Below are positions 12,547 to 19,334 of a stretch of DNA of 21,453 nucleotides, one piece after another. Within the stretch, counting starts at the first letter, position 1; every line of letters starts with the position of its first letter. Under the pieces are notes generated by a model that was given only the letters and a program-made list of their open reading frames with translations, was not told the DNA's origin and did not search any database. The position numbers and the translations under genes were made by a program. The DNA is from a virus: positions 1 to 21,453 of IMG/VR virus record IMGVR_UViG_3300039456_000032; one strand, 5' to 3'.

Positions 12547-13775
12547 CAGGTCTCTCCTGCATTTGTAATCGGGATGTCTTTGGTAATTGGTATGTTCTGC
12601 ATCTGCATCCGCACGACATCACCACCAGGAACCGGCGGTTTGCCCTCCAGCTTGCGGATCTCATTGATGGTCAGGCCACCAATCTGAGCCATAGTCTGAT
12701 AGAAACTTGCCCGGCTCGCACTGTCGCCCCGCAGCAGCCCCTCCATATTGATCCGCACCGAAATCCCAGCCGCTTTGTCAGCTGGGGTCAGGAGCTGCTT
12801 GCGCACCGCCTGCTCGATCCGCTTCACCCGGCGGCGCAGATAGAATTTGGTGAACATCAGAACTTGCTGGTCCACACTGGTTGGCCAGGCGGTCGAGGCC
12901 CCCGCATGCCCGATCAAGGCAGGCGGCACCTGAAAGAACCGGCAGATCTCCTCGACAGAGAACTGCCGGGTTTCCAGCATCTGCGCATCTTCTGGCGAGA
13001 TGGTGATATGATCATACTCCAGACCGCCCTCTGCGATGAAGGGTTTGCCTGAGTTCACTGCCCCTTGGTATTTCTCAACGATGGCTTCCGCAGCGGCGCG
13101 CTCTTCCGGGTTAAGCCATTCCTTGAATTTAATCAGACCCGAGGGACGCAACCCGTTTTTGAACACGCTTGACGCCGCACGTTCCGCCGCCAGGGCCGAG
13201 GAAAAGGTCTGCAACCCAAAGCGCAGGGTGGACATACCACCCAAGGGATTGCCGCCTGGACCACGAACATGGAACACATCACGATCGAGCTTTACATAAG
13301 ACGTGCCGTTGTCGCTCCACCGATATTCAATGCGACCATTCTCAAGACGCCGGACTGCCATAGCCTCTGGATGCACCGGATAGAGCGCAGTCACCTTCCC
13401 GTCCTTACGCACCACAGAAGCGTAGGCATTGCCCCACAGCTCAAGCGACAGGTTCATGAAGTCCCAGAAATCCAGCGCCGTCTGGTCAAAATTTGGGCTT
13501 TCATAGATCACCCGGTGCAGCGGATGGGCGCTGGCCACCTCGGCAATCCCGCCCTCAGTTTGCCGGATCGCCTCAAAGGGTAGCGATGACAGGGTGCCGC
13601 TGATCAGATTAGCGCAACCCCAAACCGCCGAAAGTCCAAGGCTCGATTGCGCACTGACCAACTCACCGGCGTTGCCCGCCGCGCCACCCTGTCCCCGGCC
13701 ATCAGTCCATTGCACCGCATTCGCGGATTTAAGCTGCAGCCCTACGGCTGACAGCGCCTTGTCGATCAGGCTCAT
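12546..13775 (-). CDS. Portal protein, HK97 family
   Basis: A 409-aa protein typical in length for HK97-type portals. Diagnostic stretches are SLGLSAVWGCANLISGTLSS (45-64), LELWGNAYA, a VFHVRG strand, GLRPSGLI, QFSVEEICRFFQVPPALIGH, and GLTINEIRKLEGKPPVPGGD near the C-terminus. It forms the dodecameric ring at the head vertex through which DNA is packaged and to which the connector binds. It overlaps the large terminase stop by 4 bp and the protease start by 1 bp. Confidence 0.95.
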   Translation of the reverse strand: MSLIDKALSAVGLQLKSANAVQWTDGRGQGGAAGNAGELVSAQSSLGLSAVWGCANLISGTLSSLPFEAIRQTEGGIAEVASAHPLHRVIYESPNFDQTALDFWDFMNLSLELWGNAYASVVRKDGKVTALYPVHPEAMAVRRLENGRIEYRWSDNGTSYVKLDRDVFHVRGPGGNPLGGMSTLRFGLQTFSSALAAERAASSVFKNGLRPSGLIKFKEWLNPEERAAAEAIVEKYQGAVNSGKPFIAEGGLEYDHITISPEDAQMLETRQFSVEEICRFFQVPPALIGHAGASTAWPTSVDQQVLMFTKFYLRRRVKRIEQAVRKQLLTPADKAAGISVRINMEGLLRGDSASRASFYQTMAQIGGLTINEIRKLEGKPPVPGGDVVRMQMQNIPITKDIPITNAGET

Positions 13776-15535
13776 GAGGAGGCTCCAAGTGCTGCAAAGA
13801 AGCTGCCGCGTCGTTCCGCGGCGCTTGTATCTTCAGCCACCTGACACAAAGGCCAGATGGCATTCATGGTGGCGATCATTCCGTCGATGGAATCCTCAGG
13901 CACCTGTTTGGTCGGGTAGATATAGTCACCGCCCTGCACCTGTTTCTGCAGGGTGTTACCGGCCATCCAGGTCAGAACCTCATTGCCGTCATTGACCACC
14001 CGGTGATCTTCAACGCTGGCAATCAGCTTGTTAAAGGGCTCATTCAGGTTCGCCGCCCGCGATCGCAACTCAACAGCTGTGATCCCGGCGTTTTCCCAAT
14101 TGGCGGCCATCTGCGCCGCAAAGGCTGCATCATAAACCACCATCTCAACATCAAGCGCCGGCACATCAGACCAGCCCCAGGTATCATCACCCAGACCGGC
14201 AAGCTGCAGAACAAGCGCCTCAACGATATTGAGATCCAGCTCTGCCCCCGGCGTGGTGTAGATTAAGCCCTTTTTCTTCCAGCCCCAGAGGTGCTCATTG
14301 CCCGGTGCATCCACGATTTTTTCCGGCAGAAAATGCCAACTGAACAAGCGGTACATCTTGCCGTCCGGTATCAGCGCCACAACGCTGGCCGGGTCTTTGC
14401 GGGTCGCCAGATCCACACCGATGTAGGCCTTGTGCCCTCGATACTGCGCCAGTGTCATGCTGGCATCTTCGCTGGCTCGCCAGGCTTCCATATCGATGGC
14501 AGCGGCGCCAACGCTGGTCCAGATATCCAGATGCTTGCGCAGAAATTCCCCAAGCGCCGCCGGGCTAGCCTCCGCCTTTTCCCATTCGTCCTGCATGTAA
14601 TCCAGCGACTTGGCCTCATGCAGGCTTGGGTTTGCCTTAGCCCATGTCTCTGGATTTCCAGGCTCGTCGCCCTCATCGGCCTCAAAGATCAGGCCGAAAT
14701 AACGCTCATTCTTGCGATCGCCCTCCAGGAGGCTCTGCAAGTATTTGCGCTGCTCAAAGCAAATGCCGCCGGTATTATAACCGGCTGTTGTGATTGCAAT
14801 CAGCAAGGGTTGCTCACGCGCCCCCAGGGCCGAGGCCATCGAGTCCCACACATCACGTTTGTCATGCTCATGCAGCTCATCGACAATGGCGCAATGCGGG
14901 TTCTTCCCATCCTTCGATTTGGTCTGACTGGCGATCGGCTGAAACACTGCAGCCGGATCCAGGGTTTTGATCTTATGCTCTTCAACCGTCAGGCCCAGCA
15001 CCTCATCAAGGCCCATGCCTTCGGCCTCACCAGACAGCGCCATCACACGCGCTGCGTCAAAGACGATCCGCGCCTGATGGGTCGAAGCCGCCGCTGAATA
15101 GACCTTGGCTCCCGGCTCACCATCAGGAACCAGGAAGTAAAGCCCAACACCAGCCAGCAGCGTAGATTTGCCATTCTTGCGCGGCACCTCAACATAGGCC
15201 GTCCGGAACCGGCGCAGCCCTGTCACCATATGACGCCAGCCACCAATCTGCCCGATCATGAAGGCCTGCCAAGGCAACAACTTCAGAGTTTCGCCACGCG
15301 CGGCCCAAGCGCCTTCGATATGAGGAAGAGCCTCCAGGAAAGCGCACATGTGTTCCGCCGCCTCGGCATCAAACACATAAGGAAAGGCATCCGTCCCAGC
15401 CCTCTTTAGATCCCCTTTGAACCTCTTGCAGGCCTGCTGGATCCGCTTGCAGCTCGGCACTTTGCCCGCCAGAACATCTTCGCCCCACTGCAAACCGCGC
15501 TGAGTGACCGGCGTTGAAATACCACAATCCAACAT
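13772..15535 (-). CDS. terL: Terminase large subunit
   Basis: A 587-aa packaging motor. The ATPase part has a Walker A motif VPRKNGKST (117-125, K123), Walker B CAIVDELHEH (D219, E220) and the coupling motif AITTAGYN (247-254). The nuclease part has a RuvC-like acidic set: D375 in YIGVDLATRKD, D469 in VVYDAAF and D551 in EDSIDGMIA. All expected residues are present, so it should be active. The N-terminal 100 residues are the usual P27/HK97-type lead-in. Its ATG shares one base with the small subunit stop. It cuts concatemeric DNA and pumps it into the prohead through the portal encoded next. Confidence 0.96.
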   Translation of the reverse strand: MLDCGISTPVTQRGLQWGEDVLAGKVPSCKRIQQACKRFKGDLKRAGTDAFPYVFDAEAAEHMCAFLEALPHIEGAWAARGETLKLLPWQAFMIGQIGGWRHMVTGLRRFRTAYVEVPRKNGKSTLLAGVGLYFLVPDGEPGAKVYSAAASTHQARIVFDAARVMALSGEAEGMGLDEVLGLTVEEHKIKTLDPAAVFQPIASQTKSKDGKNPHCAIVDELHEHDKRDVWDSMASALGAREQPLLIAITTAGYNTGGICFEQRKYLQSLLEGDRKNERYFGLIFEADEGDEPGNPETWAKANPSLHEAKSLDYMQDEWEKAEASPAALGEFLRKHLDIWTSVGAAAIDMEAWRASEDASMTLAQYRGHKAYIGVDLATRKDPASVVALIPDGKMYRLFSWHFLPEKIVDAPGNEHLWGWKKKGLIYTTPGAELDLNIVEALVLQLAGLGDDTWGWSDVPALDVEMVVYDAAFAAQMAANWENAGITAVELRSRAANLNEPFNKLIASVEDHRVVNDGNEVLTWMAGNTLQKQVQGGDYIYPTKQVPEDSIDGMIATMNAIWPLCQVAEDTSAAERRGSFFAALGASS

Positions 15536-15993
15536 CAGGAACGCGCTCCCTTTCGGGTCATGGGTCGGAACGGCGTGACAACCTTGCCGCCTTGCCCCTC
15601 GCCCTCAGGCGCCGGATCCCCAAGCAAACCCATGAAAGAGGTTTGTGTTGACGCCCCCTGCTTGGCCCGAACATAGGGCGTTCCCAGCAGCTCACGCTCC
15701 AGAACTGCAATCCGGTTTTCATGGGCCGCGCGCTGCTGCGCCAGACCCGACATAAAGTTGCCCTCTGTCCCGGTGAACCCCTCGTCAACAATCAAGACAG
15801 AGAGACGATCGAAGGCGGCGCGGTGAACCGCGTAGCGAACCACCTGGCCAAAGACCGGCTCATCAATCAGCCCATCCCGTTTCAGATAGCGCAGCAGGCT
15901 TTCACCATGCGACCGCTCAACCTCATCAAAATGAGGGGGCCAGCCTCCGAGAAGATTGACCAGTTTCTGAATGTCAGTGCCAGTGTGGTGCAT
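15535..15993 (-). CDS. terS: Terminase small subunit (P27-like)
   Basis: A 152-aa protein from the ATG at 15993. Another in-frame ATG lies four codons upstream (16005), but the G-tract between them gives a good ribosome site for the inner start. The sequence has GGWPPHFDEVERSHGESLLR, then DEPVFGQVVRYAVHRAAFDR, a central helical region with ENRIAVLERELLGTPYVRAK, and a GLLGDPAP tail, in line with P27-type small terminases. It would bind the phage packaging site and direct the large subunit. The call leans on its place directly before terL. Confidence 0.82.
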   Translation of the reverse strand: MHHTGTDIQKLVNLLGGWPPHFDEVERSHGESLLRYLKRDGLIDEPVFGQVVRYAVHRAAFDRLSVLIVDEGFTGTEGNFMSGLAQQRAAHENRIAVLERELLGTPYVRAKQGASTQTSFMGLLGDPAPEGEGQGGKVVTPFRPMTRKGARS

Positions 15994-15994
15994 A

Positions 15995-16003
15995 CCCCCC
16001 CCC
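15995..16003 (-). repeat. G9 homopolymer at the terminase small subunit start
   Basis: The minus strand has nine consecutive G residues between two possible in-frame start codons. The run probably acts as Shine-Dalgarno sequence for the ATG at 15993. A change in its length would put the outer ATG out of frame but leave the inner one usable, only altering spacing. Confidence 0.6.
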
Positions 16004-16067
16004 ATAAATTTGCGCGCGAATAAATCCGATTATTCCCGCCGGTTTCAGCCTCGAAGGGTCCAGACTT

Positions 16068-16460
16068 TCAAAGCCCCCCCTTGACCTGTTCACGCCTCTC
16101 GGCCCGTTGTTTCTTGATGTCGTGACAGCTTTTGCAAAGCGACTGCAGCGCGCCAAACCAGAACAACCCGTGGTCGTCCCGATGTGGCACCACGTGATCT
16201 GCGATCGTGGCCAGTTGTTTTGAGTGTTCCGGACAGAGCCGACACAGCGGCTCTGCATTCAGTTGTTGCAAGCGCCTGCCCGTTTTGCCGCGCCAGCCCT
16301 TGCTGTTGTACCACTTGCGGCTGGGACGGTCCGAGCGCCGCTTGGCTTCAGTTGGCTTGTCGCGGTCCTGCTTTTCCGATCGGGCATGCGCATCGCAATA
16401 GCCCGTTCCAACCTCAACCAGTCGGAAACAGCCTGGATGCGCGCAGGGTTTCTTTGGCAT
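16068..16460 (-). CDS. HNH endonuclease next to the terminase genes
   Basis: A 130-aa protein; I chose the ATG at 16460, preceded by GAGGG, over a TTG 11 codons upstream that falls in a terminator. N-terminal zinc knuckle CAHPGC ... YCDAH (C6, C11, C22, H25), basic linker, then the nuclease core: C73/C76 and C109/C112 zinc pairs, DHVVPHRDD (H89 general base) and LCKSCHDIKK (H113). The usual central Asn before L-Q-x-L-C is Ala104. HNH proteins beside terminases in HK97-like phages help cleave DNA during cos packaging. This one is the first gene of the late operon, 75 bp before the small terminase. Confidence 0.9.
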   Translation of the reverse strand: MPKKPCAHPGCFRLVEVGTGYCDAHARSEKQDRDKPTEAKRRSDRPSRKWYNSKGWRGKTGRRLQQLNAEPLCRLCPEHSKQLATIADHVVPHRDDHGLFWFGALQSLCKSCHDIKKQRAERREQVKGGL

Positions 16461-16496: not shown

Positions 16497-16529
16497 AAAA
16501 ACGCCCGCCGGTTTCCCGTGGGCGCTTTT
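16497..16529 (-). terminator. Rho-independent terminator at the head of the late operon
   Basis: On the minus strand AAAAGCGCCC pairs with GGGCGTTTTT around an inner CGG-GAAA-CCG stem, ending in five T. The opposite strand ends in four T after the stem, so it may act in both directions. It lies between the end of the putative regulator gene and the HNH gene, where a terminator would block all late genes unless it is read through. Confidence 0.75.
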
Positions 16530-16544
16530 GTAGATGATGCACTA

Positions 16545-16574
16545 TTCATGCTCTGCGGGTGGGTTAAGTGTCAA
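16545..16574 (-). promoter_or_regulatory. Putative late promoter (pR'-like)
   Basis: A perfect TTGACA -35 hexamer (16569-16574) overlaps the last codons of the putative regulator gene. With an 18-base spacer the -10 would be CATGAA (16545-16550), a poor match to TATAAT; the A/T-rich TGAATA two bases on is an alternative at a long spacing. Transcription would start just before the terminator. The -35 is clear, the -10 is weak, so this is a moderate call supported by position. Confidence 0.4.
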
Positions 16575-17343
16575 CACCCTTTTTCATTTTGGCCAAATCA
16601 TATCCCTGCATTCGATCAAGAGCCGAACAGAGAGACAGCCGTAAAGCCTTTGATGCGCCACCATCTTTTGACCATCCATGCGAATGAAGAACCTGAAGAA
16701 TTGACATGTCACCGAGGCAAACCATATCCACCAACCGACGAACATAGATGGCCCGGCGCTTCACCCCACCATTCTTTGATGGCCGGATGCGTCTAACCTC
16801 CTTTGCCAGCCCATCGCCAATGCGGCGATGCAAAGCCCGCAATCTCTGGAAGTCCCGAATGATCGCAGCCTCTCGATCACCACCACCGGCACCGCCGGAA
16901 TGAACAGCCTCAAGAGACGAACATTTGACGCCCGACGCTGTGACCCGCTCGACCAGCGCCGCATAGTCGCGCGCCGCGCTGATCTGCCCCGGCGTGAACA
17001 ATGCGCTATAGGCCTGCGGATTCTTTCCAGCCGAGGCCCGCCTGACCTCTGCCGCCCGATGCGCCTTTAGTGAAGCCCGCTCCATCGCATCGAACGCATC
17101 TGCAACCCGTGCCGCATCCCGGCCCGCCTCGCCAGTCTTGACCGAGACAAAGCCGCCACATTCGGTCTGGCGCATCTCGCGCGGCGTGAAGCGCATCATT
17201 GGCCCTCGGCCTGGGGCCATCGGAATGGCAGGCCCACACTCAGCCGGAACACGACCGCGCGCCTTAATCTTGGCAATCCGCGATACCTCATCTTGCAACC
17301 GGGCCACCCCTGCCGAGGTTACAATCACCACCTGTTCGCTCAT
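16564..17343 (-). CDS. Putative late-gene regulator, DUF6456-like
   Basis: A 259-aa basic protein. Residues 1-115 have low complexity and many Arg/Ala. The C-terminal half looks folded: FTPGQISAARDYAALVERV (116-134), a helical basic stretch, RRAIYVRRLVDMVCLGDMSI (196-215) and LHSHGWSKDGGASKALRLSL (219-238) ending LDRMQGYD. The pattern resembles the DUF6456 group of alphaproteobacterial DNA-binding-like proteins, with a terminal helix-turn-helix; this is a by-eye match. It is the last gene before the late promoter and terminator, the place of lambda Q, so a role in switching on late genes is a reasonable inference. It overlaps the upstream gene by 4 bp. Confidence 0.75.
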   Translation of the reverse strand: MSEQVVIVTSAGVARLQDEVSRIAKIKARGRVPAECGPAIPMAPGRGPMMRFTPREMRQTECGGFVSVKTGEAGRDAARVADAFDAMERASLKAHRAAEVRRASAGKNPQAYSALFTPGQISAARDYAALVERVTASGVKCSSLEAVHSGGAGGGDREAAIIRDFQRLRALHRRIGDGLAKEVRRIRPSKNGGVKRRAIYVRRLVDMVCLGDMSILQVLHSHGWSKDGGASKALRLSLCSALDRMQGYDLAKMKKGVDT

Positions 17344-18113: not shown

Positions 18114-18766
18114 CGATCCCGCGCCGCACTAATGGGCGTTACCTCGCCCGTGTAACCAAGCACCTCCGCCATGGCCGCGCGCACATTGTCGGGGGTGATG
18201 TATAGCTCCGAATGCTCGAAGTGTTCAGCTAGGGCCGTGATGGCGCGATCGTCTTTGATGATGTACTCCTGGACGCCCATGTCCCGCATTTTGGTGCGGA
18301 TCTTGTGCTTCTTGAGCGCCAACCGGCCAGCTTCACGGGCAGCATCACGCCCCCGCTTTCGCTTGTTCATGTCCGTCACGATCGCTTCAATTATGCCCGG
18401 ATGACCTAAGCGGGTTTCATATTCGCCGGTGCGGGCATCCTCCACCAGAACTGGAACCCAACCGTGCAGAACGTTCTCCTTGGCTTCCTGCCAGTCTTCG
18501 ATCGAACGGAACCGGGCTAGGTCAGCTAAATCAATGTCATCCCCTGGCAACGTCCCAGCAGGATCCTGGCGCATGGACTCGGTCCACAGGATCACGGCGG
18601 TGCCAACATCCTCGCGCCTGCCCAGCATCACGCAGCGGCTAAGGAATCGAGATCCCAAGAACCGGTGAGTGAAAAAGGGGAACCAGTCATGCGAAGACAG
18701 GGTATCGCCTCGCCGCAACGGCCAGACATCCGCAGGTACATTCTGGCCTTCAATCAGATCCGACAT
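18110..18766 (-). CDS. DUF1376-like phage replication protein
   Basis: A 218-aa protein. The N-terminal part (WFPFFTHRFLGSRFLSRCVM, then VGTAVILWTESMRQDPAGTL and DDIDLADLARF, residues about 28-87) follows the pattern of DUF1376/YdaU-like domains found in phage replication initiators. The middle has GWVPVLVEDARTGEYETRLG and a very basic helix (NKRKRGRDAAREAGRLALKK, about 134-153) that could bind DNA. The C-terminus ends with an YITPDNVRAAMAEVLGYTGE segment. A strong ribosome site GGGAGGT lies upstream. It overlaps the DnaA-like gene by 13 bp and sits directly against the iteron-like array, which it may recognise (inference). Confidence 0.8.
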   Translation of the reverse strand: MSDLIEGQNVPADVWPLRRGDTLSSHDWFPFFTHRFLGSRFLSRCVMLGRREDVGTAVILWTESMRQDPAGTLPGDDIDLADLARFRSIEDWQEAKENVLHGWVPVLVEDARTGEYETRLGHPGIIEAIVTDMNKRKRGRDAAREAGRLALKKHKIRTKMRDMGVQEYIIKDDRAITALAEHFEHSELYITPDNVRAAMAEVLGYTGEVTPISAARDR

Positions 18767-19173
18767 TGGCCCACCTCCCTTTTTCTAACAGAGACAAACG
18801 GCTTGCCCCAGATATGCTCGCGCCGGACATAGGATTGCCCCAAGGCCAGCTCGACCCGGCGTTCAATTTCGACAAATTCTGCTGCGCACTGCCGATCAGC
18901 CTTGCGCCGATCAGCCACAGCGCGCAGCGCATGCATGACCGTGGTGTGATCCCGCCCGCCAAAGCGCCGGCCAATTTCTGGCAGGCTGCAGTTGGCCTTT
19001 TGGCGGATCAGCGCCATGGCGATCTGGCGTGGCCAGGCCAGCCGCCGCGCACGGCTGGGCCCAATCATTTCGCCAGCGCGCAGATGGTAATAGCCGCGCA
19101 CAACGCCCAGAATAACCGCCACCGGGTCCGATGCTAGCCTGTGCCTGATGGCGTTGCTTGGATTGACTTTCAT
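18754..19173 (-). CDS. Free-standing DnaA domain IV (DnaA-box-binding) protein
   Basis: A 139-aa protein from the ATG at 19173, preceded by GGAAAGGTG and coupled to the small gene upstream (TGATG). Residues about 18-105 match domain IV of bacterial DnaA: LRAGEMIGPSRARRLAWPRQ then IAMALIRQ, and the signature SLPEIGRRFGGRDHTTVMHA (63-82), including the R-D-H-T-T residues that read the DnaA box. There is no AAA+ ATPase domain. The C-terminus (114-132) has SYVRREHIWGKPFVSV. It probably binds DnaA boxes in the phage origin or competes with host DnaA; the first part is firm from sequence, the role is inference. Confidence 0.88.
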   Translation of the reverse strand: MKVNPSNAIRHRLASDPVAVILGVVRGYYHLRAGEMIGPSRARRLAWPRQIAMALIRQKANCSLPEIGRRFGGRDHTTVMHALRAVADRRKADRQCAAEFVEIERRVELALGQSYVRREHIWGKPFVSVRKREVGQCRI

Positions 19174-19334
19174 CAGTCGCACCTTTCCCAAAACAGTGAC
19201 ACAGGCCCAAATTCGAAATGCCAACCGCCCCGCAACCAGACACCCGTTAACGGATGGAACCGGCAGTGAGATCGATGCAGACTGATCCGCCACTCTCGTA
19301 TGACGATCCAATTGAATAGGATTTCAGGGATCAC
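19173..19334 (-). CDS. 53-aa small protein, translationally coupled
   Basis: A GTG start overlaps the stop of the DUF1937-like gene (GTGA) and the TGA stop overlaps the ATG of the DnaA-like gene (TGATG). A GGAGGG ribosome site lies 6 bases before the GTG. The product is rich in Trp, His and Arg: IPEILFNWIVIREWRISLHR at the start, then TGVWLRGGWHFEFGPVSLFW at the end. There is no recognised family. The precise fit between two genes is the main evidence that it is real. The alternative is that the DnaA-like protein starts further up at a TTG (19311), which has no ribosome site. Confidence 0.6.
   Translation of the reverse strand: MIPEILFNWIVIREWRISLHRSHCRFHPLTGVWLRGGWHFEFGPVSLFWERCD

Follow-up and report, generated by a model that had tools for sequence, protein, structure and literature searches.

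A group of bacterial viruses probably turns on its late genes in the fashion of lambda, with a regulator of no known Q family

Does the junction between the early and late genes of this virus hold a late-control switch of the lambda Q-pR'-tR' kind, and which protein would work it? The window, that is, the whole stretch of DNA that was analysed, is the 21,453-nt (21.5 kb) IMG/VR virus record IMGVR_UViG_3300039456_000032. A preliminary description had proposed such a switch from a gene for a basic protein with a helix-turn-helix-like end, a TTGACA overlapping the 3' end of this gene and a strong terminator within about 50 bp. All of these parts were found where they had been described, on the minus strand, and the module occurs only once in the window. 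The original observation is confirmed, and it is much stronger than a single window allows. Comparison added three features that had gone unseen: a -10-like sequence at the spacing of lambda pR', a motif locked to this sequence and a strict linkage of site and gene.

Anatomy and conservation of the module

The module and its surroundings consist of the following features, in the order of transcription.

16564..17343, minus strand: p259, an open reading frame of 259 aa, the proposed late antiterminator
16569..16574, minus strand: TTGACA, -35 element, overlapping the end of p259
16559..16568, minus strand: CTTAACCCAC, proposed QBE-like protein-binding element between -35 and -10 (family motif CTTA-N-GTC); there are no binding data
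16545..16551, minus strand: weak -10 region, GCATGA at 17-nt spacing or CATGAA at 18
16533..16539, minus strand: CATCATC, -10-like, proposed sigma-dependent pause element at about +1 to +7 of an inferred start site
16501..16525, minus strand: GCGCCC...GGGCGT, hairpin of a tR'-like intrinsic terminator
16497..16501, minus strand: TTTTT, T-tract after the hairpin
16068..16460, minus strand: HNH endonuclease (PHROG 144, 9e-24), first late gene, with its ATG at 16460
15535..16005, minus strand: small open reading frame in the position of the terminase small subunit; its family was not identified
13772..15535, minus strand: terminase large subunit, TerL (PF20441 and PF03354)

The product of p259 is indeed basic (45 Lys and Arg versus 26 Asp and Glu, pI 10.4). 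Its AlphaFold model, built from an alignment of 50 sequences, has a mean pLDDT of 84.9 and ends in three helices (residues 201-209, 215-221 and 228-245) that are compatible with a helix-turn-helix. No match to p259 was found in Pfam, PHROG or NCBIfam at E 0.1-0.5, and comparison of its fold with the PDB gave nothing with E < 0.001, neither a solved antiterminator nor lambda Q or 21 Q. The statement that the protein does not look like lambda Q therefore holds for every known Q that could have been matched through Pfam, PHROG, NCBIfam or PDB folds. Homologs with about 40% identity are present in Rhodobacter phage RcapNL, in Paracoccus phages Pthi1 and Psul1 and in three phages recorded from cyanobacteria. 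Every homolog in an annotated phage is labelled hypothetical, and each lies just before the late genes; a function is thus proposed here for these proteins. In IMG/VR, 79 loci of the family were identified. A homolog was found in 46 of 393 Rhodobacterales genomes, and a wider search of alphaproteobacterial genomes added almost no members (4 of 385), so the family is apparently centred on Rhodobacterales. This switch, elsewhere typical of Rhodobacterales phages, is also present in two phages recorded as infecting Microcystis and Pseudanabaena (L004, L005), whose host assignment may be wrong.

In the window, TTGACA (16574-16569) covers the last codons of the gene, whose stop codon, TAA, lies at 16566-16564. 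The hairpin (16525-16501) begins 44 nt past TTGACA and is followed by TTTTT. Generic promoter and terminator scans of the window listed neither the TTGACA promoter nor the hairpin, owing to the poor -10 hexamer and to an internal loop in the stem. One TTGACA alone proves nothing, and it is conservation that lifts the module above chance. The same string of TTGAC, CTTA, CATCATC and a GCGCCC hairpin follows each homolog gene. TTGAC and GCGCC lie within 30-70 nt of each other in 74 of 93 non-redundant homologs, versus 1.1% of shuffles, and the distance from TTGAC to the hairpin is 49 or 50 nt in 73 of these 74, unlike the distance from TTGAC to the stop codon, which varies widely. This bears on the simplest reading of the locus, that the hairpin merely terminates the early operon, that TTGACA is an unrelated or chance -35 and that p259 does something else. 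A gene does stand directly before the hairpin, as before any operon terminator, and no promoter was flagged here by the generic scans. However, a mere operon terminator accounts neither for the fixed distance between TTGAC and the hairpin nor for the movement of TTGAC, YATCAT and hairpin as a unit behind 0.3-3 kb of other genes. We rejected this reading on these two grounds and regard it as very unlikely. It was also observed that in 28 of the 74 homologs, not including that of the window, the TGA stop codon of the regulator lies inside TTGAC, so that the same bases end the regulator gene and start its target promoter.

The spacing within the promoter-like part was analysed in about 110 non-redundant elements. 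YATCATC is nearly invariant, and positions A2, A5 and T6 of YATCAT are invariant or nearly so. YATCAT lies at TTGAC+35 in 89 of 119 elements and at TTGAC+36 in 26. CTTA and YATCAT are separated by 29 nt in 74 of 79 elements, and CTTA follows YATCAT rather than TTGAC: the distances from TTGAC to YATCAT and to CTTA are 35 and 6 in 51 elements and 36 and 7 in 23 elements. This lock is what one would expect of a factor that binds both DNA and a polymerase which sigma keeps at the pause element.

The hairpin is conserved in structure. Of 200 shuffles of the region in the window, 197 fold less well than the region itself (z -2.8), and the mean z for the family is -3.7. The stem covaries; pair 7 flips between GC and CG and is paired in 43 of 46, and the outer pairs vary among GC, GT, AT, CG and TA. 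In the first four positions past the stem, T occurs in 82, 68, 71 and 54%. The T-tract is interrupted (TTTTnnnTTT), and it is weak in some relatives, such as L003 and L119.

Linkage of the element to the regulator gene and to the late genes

If the layout were kept where the regulator gene is absent, the proposal of a switch would fail. The DNA pattern of the element was therefore run over IMG/VR independently of the protein. Of 108 matches, 98 have a p259 homolog at most 1.8 kb upstream, usually ending within 30 nt. The remaining 10 consist of 5 chance matches without a hairpin, 2 at contig ends and 3 (L223, L266, L305) whose record also has the homolog, but further upstream or at another place. 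With the chance matches and those cut by contig ends excluded, a homolog is on the record in 101 of 101, and no complete element without a p259 gene was found among the IMG/VR matches. Thus, the proposal survived this test.

The linkage also bears on whether the leader RNA itself antiterminates in the manner of put, in which case p259 would not be needed in trans. The leader is conserved and structured, as this would require. Nevertheless, its structure is a short hairpin with a T-tract, and every complete element found shares a record with a p259 gene; we hold this to be extremely unlikely.

In the other 19 of the 93 homologs, TTGAC and GCGCC do not both occur within 30-70 nt of each other. 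About 8 of these have degenerate copies, as judged by eye. In five (L316, L317, L318, L323 and L078) the element is found 0.3-3 kb further downstream behind inserted genes, with a weaker copy in L322; behind such insertions TTGAC, YATCAT and the hairpin have shifted together as one unit. What remains is a contig end, one copy with a frameshift, one with an in-frame TGA and two or three true exceptions. The stretch from regulator gene to late promoter appears in itself as an insertion hotspot, with 0.3-3 kb of unrelated genes (L305:68-1495; L266:115-2079; L316, L317, L318, L323 and L223). The insertion in L305 includes a dCTPase-type defence protein (PADLOC 9e-147).

A search for the order of regulator gene, terminator and HNH gene in other phages had been suggested. 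An HNH or TerL gene like that of the window comes next in 47 of the 73 homologs with enough flank. Ten of the remaining homologs were examined, and nine of these have a terminase of the lambda gpA type (PF05876/PF20454) and one has the TerL_nuclease type. The module thus stands before both HK97-type and lambda gpA-type terminases. This pairing with unrelated packaging modules argues for a transcription switch and against a cos or pac site recognised by terminase. A packaging site would be in keeping with the adjoining HNH, TerS and TerL genes and with the long conserved palindrome. On the other hand, the element is found before terminases that are unrelated to each other (PF03354/PF20441 and PF05876/PF20454), the annotated cohesive end of RcapNL lies upstream of its p259 homolog, about 1 kb away, and what is conserved is a promoter-like spacing. 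The packaging-site reading was rejected for these three reasons, and we find it hardly credible. The parts of the module, their fixed spacing, conservation and covariation and the linkage of gene and site were established by sequence and comparison alone.

Proposed mechanism and the question of activation

We propose that p259 is a processive antiterminator of the Q type that loads at a sigma-dependent pause, and we give this reading a probability of roughly 0.7; antitermination is inferred, without wet evidence. The TTGACA that overlaps the end of p259 would serve as the -35 of the promoter at which RNA polymerase starts. Once the first nucleotides have been joined, region 2 of sigma would grip the -10-like CATCAT, and the polymerase would pause. 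Without p259, it would then meet the hairpin and T-tract and release a leader of about 40 nt, and the late operon would stay off. Once made from the last early gene, p259 is predicted to bind CTTA-N-GTC between -35 and -10, contact the paused polymerase and travel along with it, so that this and later terminators would be ignored and the HNH, terminase and structural genes transcribed. The start site, the pause, termination, binding of p259 and antitermination are all inferences. This reading is favoured by the fixed anatomy, the lock between CTTA and YATCAT, the covarying hairpin with its T-tract, the linkage of gene and site and the occurrence before two types of terminase, and the suggestive kinship with the antiterminator GafZ (see below) also speaks for it. 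The points against it are the poor -10, the interrupted or weak T-tracts, the absence of a fold match to a solved antiterminator, the lack of transcript or binding data and the failure of the GafZ kinship to reach significance in a standard family search.

The main rival of antitermination is pure activation. In this case p259 would act as a classical activator, bound near TTGAC-CTTA-N-GTC and bringing polymerase to a weak promoter, and the hairpin would stabilise the mRNA at its 5' end or be no more than an incidental attenuator. The -10 hexamer is degenerate across the family; A at -11 is found in 46-58% of elements, and T at -7 is seldom found and not conserved. Because the -10 is this poor, the promoter may need activation, and an activating role of p259 stays possible; this is the main weakness of our proposal. 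The C-terminal helix-turn-helix of the p259 model and the poor U-tracts of some relatives also suit an activator, and two regulators of gene transfer agents, GafY and GafA, are activators (PMC11150451, PMC6363796). However, a -10 at YATCAT would put TTGAC 29-30 nt upstream of it, a distance too great for a -35, whereas the near-perfect TTGAC places YATCAT at about +1, which fits a sigma pause. In addition, at least 4 of the first 8 nt past the stem are T in 88% of relatives. Activation alone is therefore unlikely in our view, but it is not excluded. In summary, the proposed Q-pR'-tR' arrangement is supported by anatomy and comparison, while antitermination itself remains inferred.

No description of late-gene control in Rhodobacterales phages was found in the literature searched, which did not extend to subscription papers. 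The outcome of this analysis is a defined family, a precise site and predictions at single-base level, and RcapNL, a prophage of the laboratory strain Rhodobacter capsulatus SB1003, is a system where these predictions can be tested.

Comparison with known antiterminators

The preliminary description had assumed that the protein has no relation to known antiterminators. It matches no known Q, as described above, but there is suggestive evidence of a distant kinship with GafZ, the antiterminator of the Caulobacter gene transfer agent. GafA homologs contain the domain DUF6456 (PF20057; PMC9638019). GafZ is the counterpart of the C-terminal part of GafA and uses a putative binding element between -35 and -10 (PMC11150451). 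Like the p259 system, GafZ is alphaproteobacterial, with a sigma-like helix-turn-helix and a putative element between -35 and -10, and it antiterminates a phage-type structural cluster (PMC11150451), as is inferred for p259. It differs in that its putative site is the palindrome GCGCCCG-CTGGCGC rather than CTTA-N-GTC and in that it acts with GafY and IHF. The similarity of the proteins is weak in both profile and fold. p259 was below the Pfam threshold for PF20057 and gave no Pfam match. Against a broad DUF6456 set, hhalign gave p259 a probability of 41-52% over 105-117 collinear columns; seven decoy families reached at most 0.2%, and 1 of 300 column shuffles scored higher. A narrower pair of p259 and DUF6456 profiles gave only 0.2%. 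In a Foldseek search of BFVD with p259, the fourth match was a DUF6456 protein with a probability of 0.96, but with E 0.024 and TM 0.36. Our own DUF6456 structure model was too poor for comparison (pLDDT 38), and comparison of GafA DNA with phages gave no match. Kinship of p259 with GafZ/DUF6456 is thus plausible but not proven. The early region of the window also encodes, at 18754-19311 on the minus strand, a protein with a DnaA C-terminal DNA-binding domain (PF08299, 1.7e-23). The N-terminal helix-turn-helix of GafA/GafY gave no clear match to this protein (E 0.02), though GafY and GafA have a DnaA-like domain.

The best BFVD match of p259 was gp44 of Rhodobacter phage RcRhea (AKU43288.1, a hypothetical protein; L327:4929-5600), with E 6e-4 and a probability of 1.0. 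This likeness is by fold only. The gp44 gene also follows the primase and is one of the last genes, and TTGACTTTTAGAACC comes just past its stop codon. It differs in its length (172 aa) and in having no GCGCCC hairpin at the usual distance, and its function is untested. Another phage (L328:2851-4968) encodes a clear DUF6456 (GafZ-like) protein (PF20057, 7e-41) directly before HNH-TerS-TerL, and an element-like TTGAC lies at the stop codon of a weakly p259-like protein of 275 aa just upstream of it; this phage is a possible bridge to the regulators of gene transfer agents. We tentatively consider, at somewhat less than even odds, that p259, RcRhea gp44 and GafZ/DUF6456 belong to a single superfamily of antiterminators from alphaproteobacterial phages. 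This superfamily would be independent of lambda Q, 21 Q and AlpA, and its members would all load at a sigma-paused promoter of one kind. If this superfamily is real, the gene transfer agent regulator is a domesticated phage late antiterminator, and if p259 is of the Q type, it may explain the origin of the gene transfer agent antiterminator.

If p259 is of the Q type, it is also a further, apparently independent protein solution to the loading problem that lambda Q solves. Lambda pR' reads TTGACT-17-TAAATT-TGACTC-AACGAT, with AACGAT, which we take to be the -10-like pause sequence in keeping with PMC6606751, at TTGAC+35. The -10-like sequence that lambdoid Q systems have in the initial transcribed region is present here (YATCAT at TTGAC+35/36, with the start site inferred). 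A conserved element (CTTA-N-GTC) stands in the right place between -35 and -10 for a binding element, a role that is only proposed, as no binding data exist. The start of the hairpin lies about 14 nt beyond that of the pause element, whereas the lambda terminator lies near +194. The layout shared with lambda Q/pR'-tR', and with the Q systems of phages 21 and 82, runs from the last early gene through -35, binding element (putative for p259), -10-like pause element at TTGAC+35 and terminator to the late operon (PMC6606751), and these Q proteins have no sequence or fold similarity to p259. Q proteins and AlpA require a -10-like sequence and a binding element between -35 and -10 (PMC6606751, PMC9371919). 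AlpA of Pseudomonas aeruginosa likewise has a -10-like CACGAT at -1 to +5, a downstream terminator and a binding element between -35 and -10, the last of which is only proposed for p259, and A2 and T6 of the -10-like sequence of its target have been shown to matter (PMC9371919). The PDB search with p259 gave no match to its fold, and it governs lysis genes, not a late operon. Thus, p259 is Q-like in layout and a member of no known Q family.
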